From Thermoplasmata archaeon (GTDB lineage Archaea > Thermoplasmatota > Thermoplasmata > Thermoplasmatales > Thermoplasmataceae), in contig JAKAPZ010000006.1 in assembly GCA_021822985.1 (NCBI GenBank), positions 1 to 42,830 of the forward strand: 42,830 nt of DNA, given 5' to 3'. The notes below the pieces were generated by a model. It made no database searches. It saw only the letters and a program-made list of their open reading frames with translations, and was not told the origin of the DNA. The position numbers and the translations under genes were made by a program. Positions 15,759 through 22,855 of this stretch are shown here, piece after piece (the first letter of the stretch is position 1; each line of letters begins with the position of its first letter).

Positions 15759-16562
15759 TTAAGATTTTTGTTGCTTCTTTTTCCTGTTGTATCTCCATTT
15801 GGGCTGGCCAGTTGCTGTTTTTCTTTTTCCTGAGGCAAGCACCAGAAATGCCATGAACACAACAACACCACCTGCAATGTAATAGATCCAGTCATAATTT
15901 GGTGGACTTCCATAATAAAAAGTGCTCACGTAGGACGACTTTACACCAGTGAATAGAGTACCGTTCACGATTTTTACCTGAAGAGTATTAACTCCGTTAT
16001 TCAAAAGGCTTGAGGACTCAGTAACCGTTATATCTCTGCTTTGACCTGGTCCAAGTGAAATTACTTTTGTTGAGATGAGAGCACCGTTGAGAATGAATTG
16101 AACTGACATATTGCTATATGTAGTAGATTCCGTGTTTGTGATGTATGCGTTGAGCGTTATAGGTTCATAAACCGGAATTGCAAAATTTATTGTTTTGCTG
16201 ACAATGACAGAACCATATGTCGCAGTCGCATAAATTGTGACATAGATAGATTGATTCGCTGCGTCAGGTGCTGTGATGTTGAACTCGAAGAACCCACTCT
16301 TTGAAATACCGTGTGAATTTCCCCCCGTGGTAAGACCTATGTCATATTCAGAAGCTACATAAACAGTTGCAGTATAGTTAGTAAAGCCCGCTGATTCATT
16401 AAAGAAAATCTGAAATCTTTCAGTTTTGTATACGTTTGATGGGTGAGATACACTAACATTAAAAGAGCCGTTTGCAGCATGAGAAGGCTCTGCAAATGCA
16501 AGAGGTATTGACATAACCATAATAGATATACAAAATGCTACAAGTGAAATTTTGTGGTTCAT
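15759..16562 (-). CDS. Secreted/anchored surface protein coupled to AglB
   Basis: The 267-residue product has a signal peptide (residues 1-24, ending PLAFA). Two beta-rich extracytoplasmic segments follow: about 30-130, and a CARDB-like domain at about 130-215 with SVQFILNGALISTKVISLGPGQSRDI. One C-terminal membrane helix (about 225-245) and a strongly basic tail ending NRKKKQQKS complete it. Several N-x-S/T sequons are present. Its ATG overlaps the aglB stop (ATGA), so it is made together with the oligosaccharyltransferase. It could be an accessory subunit or a glycoprotein substrate. It ends directly against the convergent RNase H-fold gene. No named family is recognised. Confidence 0.75.
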   Translation of the reverse strand: MNHKISLVAFCISIMVMSIPLAFAEPSHAANGSFNVSVSHPSNVYKTERFQIFFNESAGFTNYTATVYVASEYDIGLTTGGNSHGISKSGFFEFNITAPDAANQSIYVTIYATATYGSVIVSKTINFAIPVYEPITLNAYITNTESTTYSNMSVQFILNGALISTKVISLGPGQSRDITVTESSSLLNNGVNTLQVKIVNGTLFTGVKSSYVSTFYYGSPPNYDWIYYIAGGVVVFMAFLVLASGKRKTATGQPKWRYNRKKKQQKS

Positions 16563-19500
16563 CTATTTTTCCTCCCTCTGAATGCAACGCCTGCCAGTCC
16601 ACCAATCACCGCTATCGCGATAATTAATATTCCAATTTCAAGCGTTGATACTGGGTTGCCGGTGTAATTTGCTATAATGTTTCCACCCTTTGCAGTATTA
16701 TACAGTGCGCCAAGATTGGGGAACGATACATACAGGTTTTGTGAGTGAATAGCCGAAATCTTCTGTTGATATATGCTGTATTGCACTGTGAAATTAAATA
16801 CGCTATTATAGTAATTGGATTCTGGAACCAATATAATAACCAGATTCTTTGACTGCCCGTAAGATAGATTAGTATAGTTCACGATCTTTCCATCAATACT
16901 AAACATAACCTGCCAGTTATACCTGGAATAGATGTTATCGGAAAGATTCACAGTTTCGTTGGTATTTCCACTATTTTTCAATACTCCACTGTAAGTTATG
17001 TTTCCACCGTCGAATGCTGCAAAAGTGGTTGAAATGTTTAGAGTGACAGAATAATTTACACTTATGTTGACCTTTACTTTGTCAATCAATGAACCACCAT
17101 TGTAACTGACCAAAATAGGTATTTCATTCATACCAGAAGCCACAATATTAGTATTTTTAAAGCTTGCTTTCACATAATCTGTTTTGTTAATTCCAAGACC
17201 CTTCAGAGTGCTTGTATTAAATGTTATATTCCAGTTACTGCTTCCCGAAGTTAACGTTAAATTTGCCTCCGTAGAGAGTAGATTAGTTACGTTAAGATCG
17301 TAAGAGAATTTTGAATGTTCAGTTATGTTTTGTGCGACGTAATTCTGTTTTATTGATATGTTTCCGTTGATTACCTTTTCAAGTACCAAATTAAGAGTCT
17401 GTGATTTATTGGTATCAACTGTGATCGTTGCCTGATATTCATTATTGAATGTGTAATTGTTAACTGTTTCAGTGCTTGCAGTATACGATGTGAACGAAAG
17501 GTTTTTAGTTGGAAAGAGAGTGCCTCCTCCTGAAATTATCGATATTCCAATATTTGAAACCGTTACATTCACCTTCTCTGTTTTTTGAATGTTGCCGAAA
17601 TAAGTGTAAACATATATGTATTGCGCAGGTTTCAATGAAATATTTTTGGCTGATGTACCCTGAAATAATCCAATGCCAAGATGGCCAAGATATGCTAACA
17701 TCGAGGATTTGCTGTGTGCATAAACAGTGTATGATCCATTCACAAGATTGATATTGTATTGCCCAGAGCCTGTAGTATATGTCCAACCTTCAAGCAAATT
17801 ATTTTTATAAAAGGAAACGTTGACAGCTGCCATAGTTGAACCAGTATACAGCGCAATTCCGTTAACTTCTGTATAGAATGGAGAAACGCTTAACGTTATG
17901 TTACTCTGAATGTCAGACTTCAGTGATATGGACATATTACGATAAACTTTAAACTCACCAGTTGAATTTACCAAATTATCATAATATTTCACAGAGTAAG
18001 ATCCTTGAGGTAAAATAAATGACGTAGAAGTAAGGTCTATGACGCCCGCTGATGAATTTACCATGAAATTTCCCGTAGTTATACCTAAATTGTTTGTGAG
18101 ATTAAGCCAGTAGGAATTATAGAGAATCGCATTTACTGTCGTATTATTGTTGATTGTGTATGTAATTATTCCAGATTGCATGCCTGTTCCACGTTCATAT
18201 ACCGTATAAGTTCCCGGCACTATAGTCCCATTAATTTCATTTATTAAACTGCCATTGTGGAAAAGTTTGTAAGATTGCACACCGTTTACACTGAACTGAA
18301 CATGGCTCGTAAAATTGTATGACTGTGAATAAGTAACAGTTGAAACAGAAAGTATTGATTTAAACGATGAAATAATTTGATTACCGCCGAATATTTTAAG
18401 ATAATATGACCCATATGGAAGATTGTTAAAGCTGACATTTCCATTTACTATGTTGGAAGTGTAATTGGAATATCCCTCAAGAACAATTTTAGCATCAAGT
18501 AATGCACCACCATTTACTGAAGTAAATTTAAGAGAAACATTGGATTTTTGAATATTTAAAGACGCATCTTTCTGAGCGGATACTGAAAAGACAGAAGTCG
18601 AAAACCCTTCAGAATAAGCCATCATTGTAAAACCTGTTAAGGATTGAGCGCTGTATGCAATCAGAGTATCCCCTTTTGAGTTTATAATGGCAGAACCATA
18701 ACTAACCCCATCTAAATGTATTGTAGCAACACCAGAATTTACTGATGATTGGCTATCGAAGACGGCTGCAACTGAAGGATTATAGATGCCTATTTGTACT
18801 GTTTTTGCTGTTTGGAAAGTCATATATTCGTGGTAGTTTTGGTTCAGATTCAAAGTTGTGGTAGAAACATAATCGTTTGTGCTTGAAAATGCGGACGCGT
18901 AAATAGTATAAGTAAATCCGATCGGCAGGTAAATATTGTGGTTCAAAGCTTGAATAGTTTTTATAAAAGTTCCCTGACCATTAGTAAGAGAGAGATAGCC
19001 AAATAACTGCGTCAGATTTAAATTCGTATTGCTTATTGACAATTCTGCAGAAGAATATGCATTTAAATTGATATTTTGGGAAGAATTGATATTTATACCC
19101 TGAAGCACCGTCATGTTATTGTATGTGTCATAGACAGTATAATAACCAAACGGTACTAGTCCCGTATATAAACTGCCATTTTTCTGAAGTTTTATTTCAT
19201 TCTGAGCATATGCTGACTGATAAATGTCGAGAACCGAAGGAGTGAAGCCTGATGTTGAAAAGCCTATTGTTAGTCTGGCTGCAGGTAAAAGGGTGAGATT
19301 TAAGCTTTTATTTTCCCCGAGAACACGCAAATAGACATCTGATATCTGCGTTATACTGTTTCCAAGTTTTGCGTAAACTGAATAAGATCCATTAACAACG
19401 TAAAGGAGCGCTGTTCCTGTGGTATTAGTAATTGCAGAGTAACTGCCCGCATAAACAGTTGCACCAGAAACCTTTTCTCCACTGTAAGACAGATTTACCT

Positions 19501-22500
19501 GAATAAGTGACATTGGTATTTTTATGGAGTATACAATGTTTGAATTTGGAGTGTATACATTATACTGTATGTTGTGATATGTGGTTCCGTTCGTGTAAAC
19601 TGAAACTGAATAATTTCCTTGTGGAATTCCACTAACATTGTACGAACCGTGATTTATACTGAAATTGAAATACTGGCCTGAGATGTGATTTTGTAATATA
19701 ACTGTCCCATTCTCCACATTGATGGTTTTGGAACTCTTTCCATTTACTCCATTTTGCTCCAGAATTTCAACACTGCCGGTAGAATTGAAATTTCCAACCG
19801 CGTAATTTTTGATTACGTAATAACTGGGTAAACCGGTGGTAGAATTCAATGCCAAGTCTTTTCTTTCTGCCTGTTGATTTGTTACTTTTACTCCGACTGC
19901 GTGCAGGAAGTTTTTACCTTCCAAATTGAAGGTGTTCAAAGTTCCGTATGAATAAATGATTGTGTCATTGCCAGGAAGGGCAGTTATATTATAGTATCCA
20001 TTTGAATTTGTAACTACAGACTGGTGAGGTATTCCGTACTGATCTAATATAGTAACTCTAATCCCTGATTCAGGAATGCCTGTCTGCGTTTTTATCTGTC
20101 CTGTGACAATTGCCCCGGGGAAATATCTCAAAATTGGATCCGTTCCCTGAATTATAGACGAAACCTGTGGGAAGATAAATGCGGTACCTTTTCCTTCTTT
20201 CTGAAGAGTGTAAGCCTGTTGGATTGGAAGCAATTTGAAAGCATTGGTGTGTGCGCTGAAATTTTTATATGGATTATATGGAACCCCGTCGTACACGATT
20301 TCGAAATTACTCATGTTCCAAGCAGGTTGCATAGTATAATTTGTCGTTCCAAAAGTAAGGCCGGGGATGCCCTGTGTCTGTCCAACTGCTGATGGAGGTA
20401 ATCCAATCATAGCCCTGTATATTGTAGTATTGTAGAATGCAGGTGTGTACTGAATTGTATAGCCCGTAGGAATTAAGTTTGTAGGAAGTTGGTTCAGCGG
20501 ATATGTGCCATTTGGAGTCTGTGCAAAAATCTGATAATATGCTGTTGGAACAACCCCTCCCCCGGGAGTTATATATGAAGGCGTATCCGTAAGATAAGCG
20601 GGAGCATAGAATATACCAGTGTTAAGTCCGTTGAGAGGGAAAAGTGAATGATCTACTTGTATATATTGAATGCTCCATCCCGTTGCACCCTGTAGATTCT
20701 GATAAAGATTTACCAGATTGGTAAGACTTACTTTTGATGCAAGCTGTCCCTTCATTAGAGCATAATATGCATTAGTGGTTGAAATAGATGGAATAAATCG
20801 TCCATATACTGATGCGTTGTTTAAGATCCATGGGACGTCCTGTAGGGGATTTTTATAAATACTCTGAAGAATATTAATATCTGATGAGTTTAAATATTCT
20901 GAGAGAGCAATCCTAATAGAAGGTGTGAGATTACCATTGTTTTCCAACATTGAAGCCTGTATTAGTCTTGCAGACATAAGAGAAATTATCTGTGACTCGT
21001 TTTGTGAAAGCAATATTTGCCCAGCAACCTGATAAGACTGTTGGAAGTCATCGGCGACAGTTGGATGTTTACCCTGGCAGAGCTCTTGGAAACCATAATC
21101 CCACCAGTTGACATAAGCAGGTTTTTCCGCAATTGAGAGGTTTTGTTGCTGGGTTGAGAGCCATGCAAGGGATTTAGATAAGGGTGTTGTTGAGTTGGTG
21201 ATGAAGGAACCAGTGGTACCAAAGTAAGTGCTTTGGTTCGCTAAGTAAGATGATGATTTTAGGAATGATGGAAGGGAGTTATAGACTTCATGATTTACAG
21301 AATTTGCAGAATTTCCCGGAACGGCAGCTGAAACAACCCCGAGACCTGAAGGTATAAGAATTCCAAAAGCTATTAAAAATACAAAAGCAGCCTGAAGCCA
21401 TTTAATATTCCCTGTAAGAGCCTTGCTCCTCCTATATGTTCTTTTAATTCTGTCTTCACTGACATTCTTATCCAGTTTGAGCAGATTAGAGAAATATGCA
21501 AGAAGTGCAGCTCCAAGTATTGCATAGCTTGGGGCAGCAGTGACATTGAATCTGGCTGCCGCAAAACTCATATATATAGAAACACCACTGAATACAAGAA
21601 GCAGAAGAAGAGAGTCTGATTTTTCTTTGACGAAAGAATAGGTAACGTATGCGAAACCAGCTATACCAAGTATAAACTGTGCTACTCCAAATCCGCCAAT
21701 GTACTGGCCAAGAGGCGGTGATTGTGCTTCAGCTATTGTTTGATATACCCTTGTTTTAATGAAATATCCTTCCCCTGATATGATTTCATTGAAAATATGT
21801 GGTGAAAATTTGTAAAGGCCAGCGAGAGTTACTACAATAAATAGTATCATTACTGGAACTGAAATTATCCAAGGTTTTCTACCAGCTATACTCATTAAAA
21901 CAGAAATTAATATTAGTCCTAAACCAATGTAAAGTGGAGGGATGAACCATGCACTGGGTGCATTGTTTGCTGCGTAATAATAATACGCACTCATGGAAAA
22001 AGAAAGTGCAACAAATATTACACTTATATAAACAAGGTACTCATTGTTTCTTGAGAGAAACAGATTTACTATCAACTGAATAACGATATAAATAGTCACA
22101 ATGGCAAGAATATAAGCATGTCCCTGCCAGGAAAGCTGGAGTGCCCCATATGTTGCTCCGGCTAGAAGAGAATACACTGTAGCCTTTCTGTTGTTCCGCA
22201 TATACCTTTTCAGATCACTATAATAAGCTTTCACATCGAAAAGACTGCCTTGAATAATTCTCTCTTTGGTTGAAAATCGAACTGCCCTTTCCAAAAAGTA
22301 TATTGCAAAAAATGCAAAAATAAGTTCTGGAGTGTGCATCCTCCCGTCAGAAAGTATTCCAGATGAAAGGTTACTTGGCATTAATGCATAAAGAACAGCA
22401 CCTATCATACCTGCTTTCTTTCCCAGTATACTTTTTCCAAGCATATATACAGGAATTATAAGCAGTGCTCCAAACACAGCGTCAAATTCCATGAATGCAT

Positions 22501-22855
22501 AATATGCCGCATTAGAAGAACCTCCAAGGAATGGTCCCAGAATTACTGCGACAAATGCGATCATCCAGTGGAAAAATGGGTTTCTCGGATTCCCTGATCC
22601 GATAGGATAATTAAGTCCTATAGTGTGAAGAAGAGTCGTGTGGTTAGATAATATGTACTGTATAATTATATAATTAAAATATGGATCGCTTCCTCCCGAA
22701 AAGTTGACAAAACCATCCAGGAATGTTTGGCCCCACATGAAGAAATTTGCAAGGAACATGTAGAGCGAAAAGAGCAATAACAATCCAACAAACTCCCAGT
22801 TTTTCGTAAACCATTTGGTTAATTTCTCAATAGGTTGTATCTCTTCCAGTTCCAT
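16559..22855 (-). CDS. aglB: Giant AglB/STT3 oligosaccharyltransferase with long surface tail
   Basis: AglB moves a lipid-linked glycan onto asparagine in N-x-S/T outside the membrane. The N-terminal part has about 13 membrane helices with the metal/substrate motifs: GGSDPYF (Asp57), LSDGRMHTPE in the second loop, and TIAEAQSP near residue 370, followed by WWDYG at 584-588. That catalytic unit ends near residue 910. The remaining roughly 1190 residues are unusual. They form serial beta domains of CarboxypepD-regulatory type (for example TGQIKTQTGIPESGIRVT) and late NEW3-like segments, and end in a last membrane helix (about 2070-2090) and RGRKNR. The tail is dense in sequons. Family members are usually 700-1000 residues. 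A TATA-like CTTATACATTG lies at about 22895-22883. Confidence 0.93.
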   Translation of the reverse strand: MELEEIQPIEKLTKWFTKNWEFVGLLLLFSLYMFLANFFMWGQTFLDGFVNFSGGSDPYFNYIIIQYILSNHTTLLHTIGLNYPIGSGNPRNPFFHWMIAFVAVILGPFLGGSSNAAYYAFMEFDAVFGALLIIPVYMLGKSILGKKAGMIGAVLYALMPSNLSSGILSDGRMHTPELIFAFFAIYFLERAVRFSTKERIIQGSLFDVKAYYSDLKRYMRNNRKATVYSLLAGATYGALQLSWQGHAYILAIVTIYIVIQLIVNLFLSRNNEYLVYISVIFVALSFSMSAYYYYAANNAPSAWFIPPLYIGLGLILISVLMSIAGRKPWIISVPVMILFIVVTLAGLYKFSPHIFNEIISGEGYFIKTRVYQTIAEAQSPPLGQYIGGFGVAQFILGIAGFAYVTYSFVKEKSDSLLLLLVFSGVSIYMSFAAARFNVTAAPSYAILGAALLAYFSNLLKLDKNVSEDRIKRTYRRSKALTGNIKWLQAAFVFLIAFGILIPSGLGVVSAAVPGNSANSVNHEVYNSLPSFLKSSSYLANQSTYFGTTGSFITNSTTPLSKSLAWLSTQQQNLSIAEKPAYVNWWDYGFQELCQGKHPTVADDFQQSYQVAGQILLSQNESQIISLMSARLIQASMLENNGNLTPSIRIALSEYLNSSDINILQSIYKNPLQDVPWILNNASVYGRFIPSISTTNAYYALMKGQLASKVSLTNLVNLYQNLQGATGWSIQYIQVDHSLFPLNGLNTGIFYAPAYLTDTPSYITPGGGVVPTAYYQIFAQTPNGTYPLNQLPTNLIPTGYTIQYTPAFYNTTIYRAMIGLPPSAVGQTQGIPGLTFGTTNYTMQPAWNMSNFEIVYDGVPYNPYKNFSAHTNAFKLLPIQQAYTLQKEGKGTAFIFPQVSSIIQGTDPILRYFPGAIVTGQIKTQTGIPESGIRVTILDQYGIPHQSVVTNSNGYYNITALPGNDTIIYSYGTLNTFNLEGKNFLHAVGVKVTNQQAERKDLALNSTTGLPSYYVIKNYAVGNFNSTGSVEILEQNGVNGKSSKTINVENGTVILQNHISGQYFNFSINHGSYNVSGIPQGNYSVSVYTNGTTYHNIQYNVYTPNSNIVYSIKIPMSLIQVNLSYSGEKVSGATVYAGSYSAITNTTGTALLYVVNGSYSVYAKLGNSITQISDVYLRVLGENKSLNLTLLPAARLTIGFSTSGFTPSVLDIYQSAYAQNEIKLQKNGSLYTGLVPFGYYTVYDTYNNMTVLQGININSSQNINLNAYSSAELSISNTNLNLTQLFGYLSLTNGQGTFIKTIQALNHNIYLPIGFTYTIYASAFSSTNDYVSTTTLNLNQNYHEYMTFQTAKTVQIGIYNPSVAAVFDSQSSVNSGVATIHLDGVSYGSAIINSKGDTLIAYSAQSLTGFTMMAYSEGFSTSVFSVSAQKDASLNIQKSNVSLKFTSVNGGALLDAKIVLEGYSNYTSNIVNGNVSFNNLPYGSYYLKIFGGNQIISSFKSILSVSTVTYSQSYNFTSHVQFSVNGVQSYKLFHNGSLINEINGTIVPGTYTVYERGTGMQSGIITYTINNNTTVNAILYNSYWLNLTNNLGITTGNFMVNSSAGVIDLTSTSFILPQGSYSVKYYDNLVNSTGEFKVYRNMSISLKSDIQSNITLSVSPFYTEVNGIALYTGSTMAAVNVSFYKNNLLEGWTYTTGSGQYNINLVNGSYTVYAHSKSSMLAYLGHLGIGLFQGTSAKNISLKPAQYIYVYTYFGNIQKTEKVNVTVSNIGISIISGGGTLFPTKNLSFTSYTASTETVNNYTFNNEYQATITVDTNKSQTLNLVLEKVINGNISIKQNYVAQNITEHSKFSYDLNVTNLLSTEANLTLTSGSSNWNITFNTSTLKGLGINKTDYVKASFKNTNIVASGMNEIPILVSYNGGSLIDKVKVNISVNYSVTLNISTTFAAFDGGNITYSGVLKNSGNTNETVNLSDNIYSRYNWQVMFSIDGKIVNYTNLSYGQSKNLVIILVPESNYYNSVFNFTVQYSIYQQKISAIHSQNLYVSFPNLGALYNTAKGGNIIANYTGNPVSTLEIGILIIAIAVIGGLAGVAFRGRKNR

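Follow-up and report, generated by a model that had tools for sequence, protein, structure and literature searches.

The 42,830-nucleotide window analyzed here, from contig JAKAPZ010000006.1 of a Thermoplasmata archaeon, contains a minus-strand open reading frame (ORF; 16559-22855) for AglB, the oligosaccharyltransferase (OST) that glycosylates exported proteins; it is 2098 amino acids long and runs in one frame with zero internal stops. Directly downstream lies a gene for a 267-amino-acid membrane protein, hereafter the partner. The features of the two genes are listed below, from the start of aglB to the end of the partner gene.

20156-22855, minus strand: membrane and catalytic part of AglB, residues 1-900 (TIGR04154 match at 25-627, catalytic motifs)
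22679-22699, minus strand: first external loop motif SGGSDPY, residues 53-59 (alignment to canonical relatives)
22334-22354, minus strand: second external loop stretch LSDGRMH, residues 168-174 (aligned position)
21728-21739, minus strand: TIAE motif, residues 373-376 (alignment)
21092-21106, minus strand: WWDYG motif, residues 584-588 (pattern search and alignment)
19883-20143, minus strand: first tail domain, CarboxypepD_reg/TTR-like, residues ~905-991, highly conserved (Pfam, conservation of block 901-975, model)
20024-20065, minus strand: GIRVTILDQYGIPH motif, residues 931-944, in the first tail domain (alignment)
17366-19795, minus strand: predicted array of prealbumin/TTR-like beta sandwiches, residues ~1021-1830 (AlphaFold2 model, single-domain fold matches)
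17081-19060, minus strand: middle stretch, residues ~1266-1925, missing from two shortened (Acidiplasma-group) tails in which both ends are kept (alignment)
16706-17365, minus strand: two predicted Ig/NEW3-like domains, residues ~1831-2050 (model, fold matches)
16580-16636, minus strand: C-terminal membrane helix, residues 2074-2092 (hydropathy; a helix in the model)
16562-16579, minus strand: basic end RGRKNR (sequence)
16559-16562, minus strand: ATGA overlap of the partner start codon and the aglB stop codon (sequence)
15759-16562, minus strand: partner gene, 267 amino acids (ORF; start resembling a signal peptide, then two beta sandwiches, one membrane helix and a basic tail carrying PKW)
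15909-16466, minus strand: partner beta sandwiches, residues 33-134 and 135-218, the second CARDB-like (model, Pfam)
15762-15893, minus strand: partner membrane helix, residues 224-245, and basic tail with the PKW motif (sequence, model)

Three motifs by which AglB/STT3 proteins are recognized are present in the window protein, namely the first-loop Asp (GGSDPY), TIXE (as TIAE) and WWDYG; simple patterns for the DK/MI motif matched nowhere in it, and the alignment is gappy in that region. Residues 25-627 match TIGR04154 (archaeosortase A system-associated STT3) with 200.1 bits, which is under the curated 450-bit cut-off. At the second loop, the window and its near relatives have DGRMH where several members of the class have ADHD, an unusual change for a catalytic loop. 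The protein resembles the canonical AglB of Archaeoglobus fulgidus (residues 6-868) in its membrane region, C-terminal globular domain, TIXE and WWDYG motifs, as given in the available text of PMC8342417, but differs from it by about 1190 more residues, a final membrane helix and the coupled partner gene.

The extra residues had been singled out in an original prediction, made from the DNA letters and covering 16559-20130 (AglB residues 909-2098 plus the stop codon). Its description of an uninterrupted frame that continues for about 1190 residues past the catalytic part, and that closes with a membrane helix and a basic end, agrees with the single ORF and with the hydrophobic stretch at 2074-2092 followed by RGRKNR. 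The string of beta domains that it proposed, including a CarboxypepD-regulatory-like domain, is borne out by a Pfam match to CarboxypepD_reg at residues 917-977 (whole-protein E 3.6e-12) and by a predicted tail structure with beta strands throughout. The NEW3-like domain fared less evenly: the window protein has no such match at E≤1, and NEW3 (PF10633) is found in 8 of 36 tails from the order.

AglB matches occur in 107 of 117 genomes of the window's GTDB order. Forty order loci were fetched and five were set aside, two that run into contig ends (L062, L067), one holding part of an AglB only (L068), one that ends 269 nt short of the contig end without the usual last helix (L069), and the E-plasma locus (L034), in which the frame is broken. 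The 35 intact loci comprise 33 long AglBs and two shortened ones (1425 and 1442 residues), the latter from the Acidiplasma group; these lack window residues ~1266-1925 (~650 residues) and keep the first domains, the last two domains and the membrane helix. Two of the loci set aside deserve separate mention. In E-plasma (L034/L119) the frame is broken near residue 1232 and an 893-amino-acid remainder, with the usual membrane helix at its end, lies in another frame, which may reflect either a sequencing error or a real break. In a Cuniculiplasma metagenome-assembled genome (L069/L172, G057:C32), a second, divergent AglB with 37% identity to the query and a frame of 1590 amino acids may be a paralogue or binning contamination.

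Across the wider class, 375 of 400 genomes match AglB at E≤1e-10, and among the matches listed the frames outside the order are mostly ~2150-2320 residues long, the others appearing cut. Order and class tails align end to end with hhalign (1170 of 1204 columns, E 9.8e-121, 19% identity). AglB was also matched in 78 of 79 genomes of a phylum sample; judged by the listed frames, 11 of the 22 families outside the class have frames longer than 2300 residues (up to 3277) and 11 have frames of ~1000-1430. Likeness of the tail to three tails from outside the class (L096, L097, L100; E 6.8e-9, probability 95.8, 1056 columns with large insertions) is much weaker than likeness within it. In these three loci and L098, the AglB frames run from 2450 (cut by a contig end) to ~3200 amino acids and WWDYG lies near residue 950, versus ~584 in the window, so there is extra sequence ahead of the motif too.

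The fusion that the original prediction expected in other Thermoplasmatales is thus present, as homologous tails of conserved length in the order and the class. The recurrence of intact long AglBs in relatives rules out an assembly error or a separate tail gene, and none of the intact relatives among the order and class loci examined was seen to encode the tail as a separate protein, the E-plasma frame being a broken one. By these alignments the long-tailed AglB is neither an artifact of this contig nor special to the window organism.

Conservation along the protein is uneven. Compared with the window sequence in blocks of 75 residues, members of the family are 37-65% identical as far as residue 900, 54% identical over block 901-975 and 17-34% identical past residue 976, with alignment occupancy of at least 0.94 across blocks. 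The end of the catalytic part near residue 910 therefore needs adjustment: the long extra part is real, but block 901-975 matches the core in its degree of conservation, and the fast-evolving tail starts near residue 980-990. The VTxxDxYGIPH motif of the first tail domain has the same T, D, P and H in all 20 long-tailed members aligned (17 from the class, three others), and it is not retained in three tails from elsewhere in the phylum. The fast evolution of the remainder, together with the ~650 residues missing from the two shortened tails, would be expected if the tail were a set of freely accreted domain repeats of little function; its near-constant length and end-to-end colinearity over the class make this very improbable. 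The conserved ends and the missing middle of the shortened tails suggest a spacer with functional ends.

We modeled the tail as a single chain with AlphaFold2, using the 36 order members. The model (mean pLDDT 83.6, pTM 0.50) has beta strands throughout and a final helix, and by counting strands by eye we recognize ~13 sandwiches, ~11 of them prealbumin/TTR-like and two NEW3/Ig-like; their relative placement in the model is not settled because the pTM is low. Single domains of the tail find matches in a teneurin TTR-like domain (Z 10.2, root-mean-square deviation [rmsd] 2.2, 80 residues) and, close to the end of the model, in the Ig-like domain of a sialidase (Z 10.1, rmsd 3.0, 97 residues). 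Long structural matches have poor rmsd, and those listed by Foldseek for the whole model are generic Ig/macroglobulin-like matches, also with poor rmsd. Chains of TRAP, OST subunits and NOMO were absent from the best 50 matches of each structure search, which does not exclude them. In a search of the tail profile against 177,635 PDB sequences, NOMO2 ranked first (E 1.3e-9, spread over four stretches), and Pfam at E≤0.1 finds NOMO_5th in 10 and NOMO1-like_9th in 5 of the 36 tails.

NOMO is a separate type I membrane protein with its own signal peptide and a C-terminal membrane helix, and it assembles with Nicalin and TMEM147. The combination of tandem prealbumin-like domains and a C-terminal membrane helix is found in the tail as well, a weak resemblance given that the domain type is common. 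As a component of the BOS complex of the multipass translocon in the endoplasmic reticulum (ER), NOMO likewise has tandem prealbumin-like domains (PMC11186639) in a chain of ~1200 residues, and NOMO2 is the best PDB sequence match of the tail. The window tail differs in being fused behind an OST catalytic part, with likeness at the level of domains.

The structure searches also bear on a second explanation, in which the tail belongs structurally to the outer coat, as a membrane-anchored, glycosylated arm contributing to the unordered external protein layer of wall-less Thermoplasmatales; this corresponds to the glycocalyx role raised in the original prediction. The S-layer protein SlaB heads the VIA list for the tail (Z 11.2), and this S-layer stalk protein is similarly a string of beta domains with a membrane end; however, the match covers 176 residues at an rmsd of 25.8, a poor superposition, and the tail is known here from its sequence and model. 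A coat role would suit Cuniculiplasma divulgatum, which has a dense external layer of ~20 nm, unordered, and for which no S-layer-like genes were found according to the available text of PMC12448462; the same source describes both Cuniculiplasma and Oxyplasma as lacking S-layers and leaves the identity of the layer unknown. Acid-mine plasma cells have been observed to carry surface layers, in a study that also notes AglB homologues (PMC3750248), and AglB is named in Cuniculiplasma in a report whose available text does not state its length (PMC5155288). Arguing against a coat component, the tail also occurs in Aciduliprofundum/DHVE2 relatives and throughout the class, and OST abundance would be expected to be low. 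This spread rules out an arm specific to wall-less organisms; the S-layer- or adhesin-like arm of the original prediction, as far as it is tied to a wall-less state, is not supported. We also considered a Thermoplasma glycoprotein, which we take to be of 152 kDa, as a possible released tail; this was not confirmed from any paper.

Sequon counts place the tail among exported proteins. The window AglB has 72 N-x-S/T sequons, 55 of them after residue 901, where shuffled sequences give an expectation of 29.2 (z 5.7). The local density noted earlier, about seven per 70 residues near residue 1850, was recovered in 70-residue windows starting at 1815 and 1830, and reaches a maximum of 8 in the one starting at 1930. 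Over the 36 order tails the observed/expected ratio (o/e) is 2.18, versus 1.13 for the reversed-motif control. As background we used 20 sampled stretches (400 kb) of a same-genus genome: the o/e is 0.98 in 203 proteins without a membrane helix and 1.78 (reversed motif 1.18) in 15 surface-like proteins, which carry 0.3-4.8 sequons per 100 residues. Sequon enrichment is thus general for exported proteins of this genus, which weakens sequon density as special evidence for the tail; at 4.6 per 100 residues, the window tail lies at the top of this range yet inside it. Because its enrichment is comparable to that of the surface-like proteins, the tail is probably glycosylated as other exported proteins are, at the upper end of the range. 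A sequon-rich beta string with two membrane ends still speaks for a coat component, but its density falls within the exported-protein range and, as described below, the tail is retained where the enrichment is nearly gone; we regard this explanation as unlikely.

The partner gene accompanies the long AglB across the class. We searched for it with its own profile, to which many of the order and class loci had themselves contributed. In all 35 intact order loci, and in all 23 class loci that were inspected, it lies directly behind AglB on the same strand, the commonest start offset being -4 nt (51 of 121 profile matches). A separate scan supplied 80 named loci, overlapping with these genomes, of which 67 are complete, and the partner was located in the complete ones by profile (60), by eye in translations (6), and in E-plasma (1), where aglB is broken and the partner sits behind its second piece. 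Genome-wide, the profile matches 111 of 117 order genomes at E≤0.001, some of the matches being weak or partial. Absence of the partner from some relatives was considered and rejected, the partner-less remainder consisting of cut or broken loci and lineages outside the class; in the latter it lies behind two of ten complete long AglBs and none of four shorter ones. Genes beyond the aglB-partner pair differ between lineages, and no conserved third gene was seen behind the partner in the 20 loci examined.

The single-chain model of the partner has a pLDDT of 88.8, and CARDB is matched at E≤1 in 43 of 46 members. Tail and partner profiles align over 49 columns (E 3.8e-7), in the last Ig-like domain of the tail. 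TRAP families were absent from the best 25 of 76 Pfam families (46 members) and the best 60 of 712 PDB matches for the partner, and an OST-subunit family was absent from the same best 25 Pfam families. In layout, TRAP alpha/beta and the non-catalytic OST subunits of eukaryotes are like the partner, with a signal peptide, one or more Ig-like external domains, one membrane helix and a basic tail; the partner differs in its CARDB-type second domain, and its link to AglB is seen here as gene coupling. This coupling with a small membrane protein suggests a complex. Two further observations concern the surroundings and relatives of the partner. A thioredoxin-like gene (WCGPC, by eye) follows it on the same strand at five loci (L073, L074, L075, L077, L090). 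Separate ORFs of ~950-1030 amino acids, whose match to the partner profile lies at its CARDB and membrane-helix end, recur in order genomes (e.g., G097:C1:297676-298011 and G101:C1:1388840-1389196) and are probably surface proteins.

In a family designated f11, most of the AglBs examined have lost the catalytic motifs. Three sites are altered together in the aligned sequences of 14 genomes: the first-loop Asp, replaced by Glu in G239 and by Ser, Gly or Ala in the others; the second-loop stretch; and WWDYG, in graded fashion from WIDY (five genomes) to WFGNS. The TIXE Glu is gone in 13 of the 14, G133 aligning a Glu. Three more f11 genomes (G260, G351, G290) keep the first-loop Asp and read WAEYV, WLDYG and WLDFG, respectively, and two cut or broken loci (G367, G347) look like the motif-degenerate AglBs. 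All catalytic motifs are intact in four f11 genomes that belong to genus g84. A genome of another family (G254, f32) reads WNGYG and is missing the TIXE Glu. Each of the 32 genomes searched for AglB gave matches from a single locus, except where a contig end or a broken frame divides it; several of these genomes are single contigs with 99% completeness.

All 18 complete degenerate loci (17 f11, one f32; L211-L224 and L084-L087, with L225 and L230 set aside as cut or broken) have a long frame of 1841-2544 residues together with the coupled partner. In four f11 pairs the ratio of nonsynonymous to synonymous substitution rates (dN/dS) is 0.10-0.76 over all regions, so the long tail and partner persist under purifying selection. 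From this retention under dN/dS below 1, we infer that most of the tail and the partner would have a role that outlives glycosyl transfer. The first tail domain behaves differently: the g84 genomes retain YGIPH, and it has gone from the 18 degenerate genomes in which the region is present, a co-loss that appears to tie this domain to catalysis. Since it is also conserved like the catalytic core, the first tail domain seems to belong to the enzyme. Both properties of this domain, and the covalent fusion of the tail to the enzyme, would agree with a tail and partner that serve glycosylation only, by docking acceptors or keeping them unfolded for the active site; retention of the remaining tail and the partner in every complete degenerate locus leaves this with a small likelihood.

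Beyond residue 520, the sequon o/e is 1.10 in the 14 f11 AglBs (reversed motif 1.07), 1.32 in four partially degenerate AglBs and 1.77 in nine further members of the class. Two canonical g84 sequences have a ratio of 0.77, so there is no clean correlation with motif loss. Since f11 keeps the tail and partner with sequon enrichment nearly gone, the tail does not appear to be mainly a glycan-bearing arm or, as had been suggested, a substrate of its own active site. Alternatively, the motif-less AglBs could still be active with altered chemistry, in which case tail retention would be uninformative about a separate role. The changes are only partial in some sequences (the five with WIDY, the Glu of G239, the Glu of G133), the membrane part shows higher identity than the other three regions in each of the four f11 pairs, and the unenriched g84 sequences show that enrichment loss does not track the motifs cleanly. 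Set against this are the joint alteration of first-loop Asp, second-loop stretch and WWDYG in 14 genomes, the TIXE Glu gone in 13, and the o/e of 1.10, and we judge altered chemistry improbable.

If the motif changes are taken at face value, loss of N-glycosylation is predicted in most of f11, contrary to the statement that all archaea have N-glycosylation (PMC8342417). The f32 genome with degenerate motifs falls under the same prediction. We take f11 to be Methanomassiliicoccales or Methanomethylophilaceae. If so, the prediction would fit the tendency of host-associated Methanomassiliicoccales toward fewer glycosyltransferases (PMC9723798).

The reading to which we give slightly better than even chances is a two-subunit OST complex with a NOMO-like, membrane-tethered beta arch whose scaffold or chaperone role is separable from catalysis. 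The class AglB would be the large subunit of a conserved two-protein membrane complex, its catalytic part transferring glycans. The tail would be a chain of ~12 beta sandwiches tethered to the membrane by the multi-helix domain and by the final helix; anchored in this way at its two ends, it would form an external arch if the predicted topology is right. To this the partner would contribute a further pair of beta sandwiches, its own membrane helix and its basic tail. Such a complex would most likely serve as a scaffold or holdase to exported and membrane proteins that emerge beside the enzyme, working like the lumenal accessories of the ER OST and translocon (NOMO, TRAP, ribophorins); the ER translocon is surrounded by beta domains contributed by NOMO, TRAP and accessory subunits of the OST (PMC11186639, in part). 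We infer the physical complex, the arch topology and the chaperone or scaffold role from the architecture, gene coupling and retention described above.

Several points weigh against the two-subunit complex with a NOMO-like arch. Outside the class, by the listed frames, the long AglB is found in just 11 of 22 phylum families, and the partner is not behind 8 of 10 complete long AglBs. The best single NOMO2 stretch has an i-Evalue of 3.7e-4, which places the NOMO likeness at domain level, and because the very common CarboxypepD_reg domain matches 36 of 36 tails, this likeness appears to be at the level of the superfamily. Tail dN/dS is 0.61-0.76 in two f11 pairs, indicating weak constraint, the structural models are of single chains only, and beta-sandwich arrays are typical of surface proteins too, SlaB being the leading VIA match at its rmsd of 25.8. 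On balance the tail and partner probably have a cell-surface function independent of the enzyme, for which we rank a scaffold/holdase role first and a coat component second. A stronger version, in which a class-wide two-subunit OST machine uses its NOMO-like arch and TRAP-like partner in an export or membrane-protein folding task more indispensable than glycosylation, and in which one lineage has given up catalysis and retains the machine as a pseudo-oligosaccharyltransferase, is a tentative proposal that we consider doubtful.

We found no account of the long-tailed form, its partner or the AglBs without motifs in the literature searched, which left most subscription papers outside. The class-wide giant AglB with its coupled second membrane protein is a concrete candidate for a prokaryotic OST accessory subunit, which matters because the archaeal OST is described as monomeric in a review (PMC7226087) and an earlier search reports, in its available text, no promising prokaryotic homologues of the non-catalytic OST subunits (PMC4973528). 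The motif-less relatives allow accessory function to be studied apart from catalysis. For the wall-less acidophiles, the long-tailed AglB is also a candidate for a part of the external layer (described in PMC12448462). If the stronger version holds, the AglB-partner pair would be an archaeal counterpart of the glycosylation-coupled translocon accessories of the ER.

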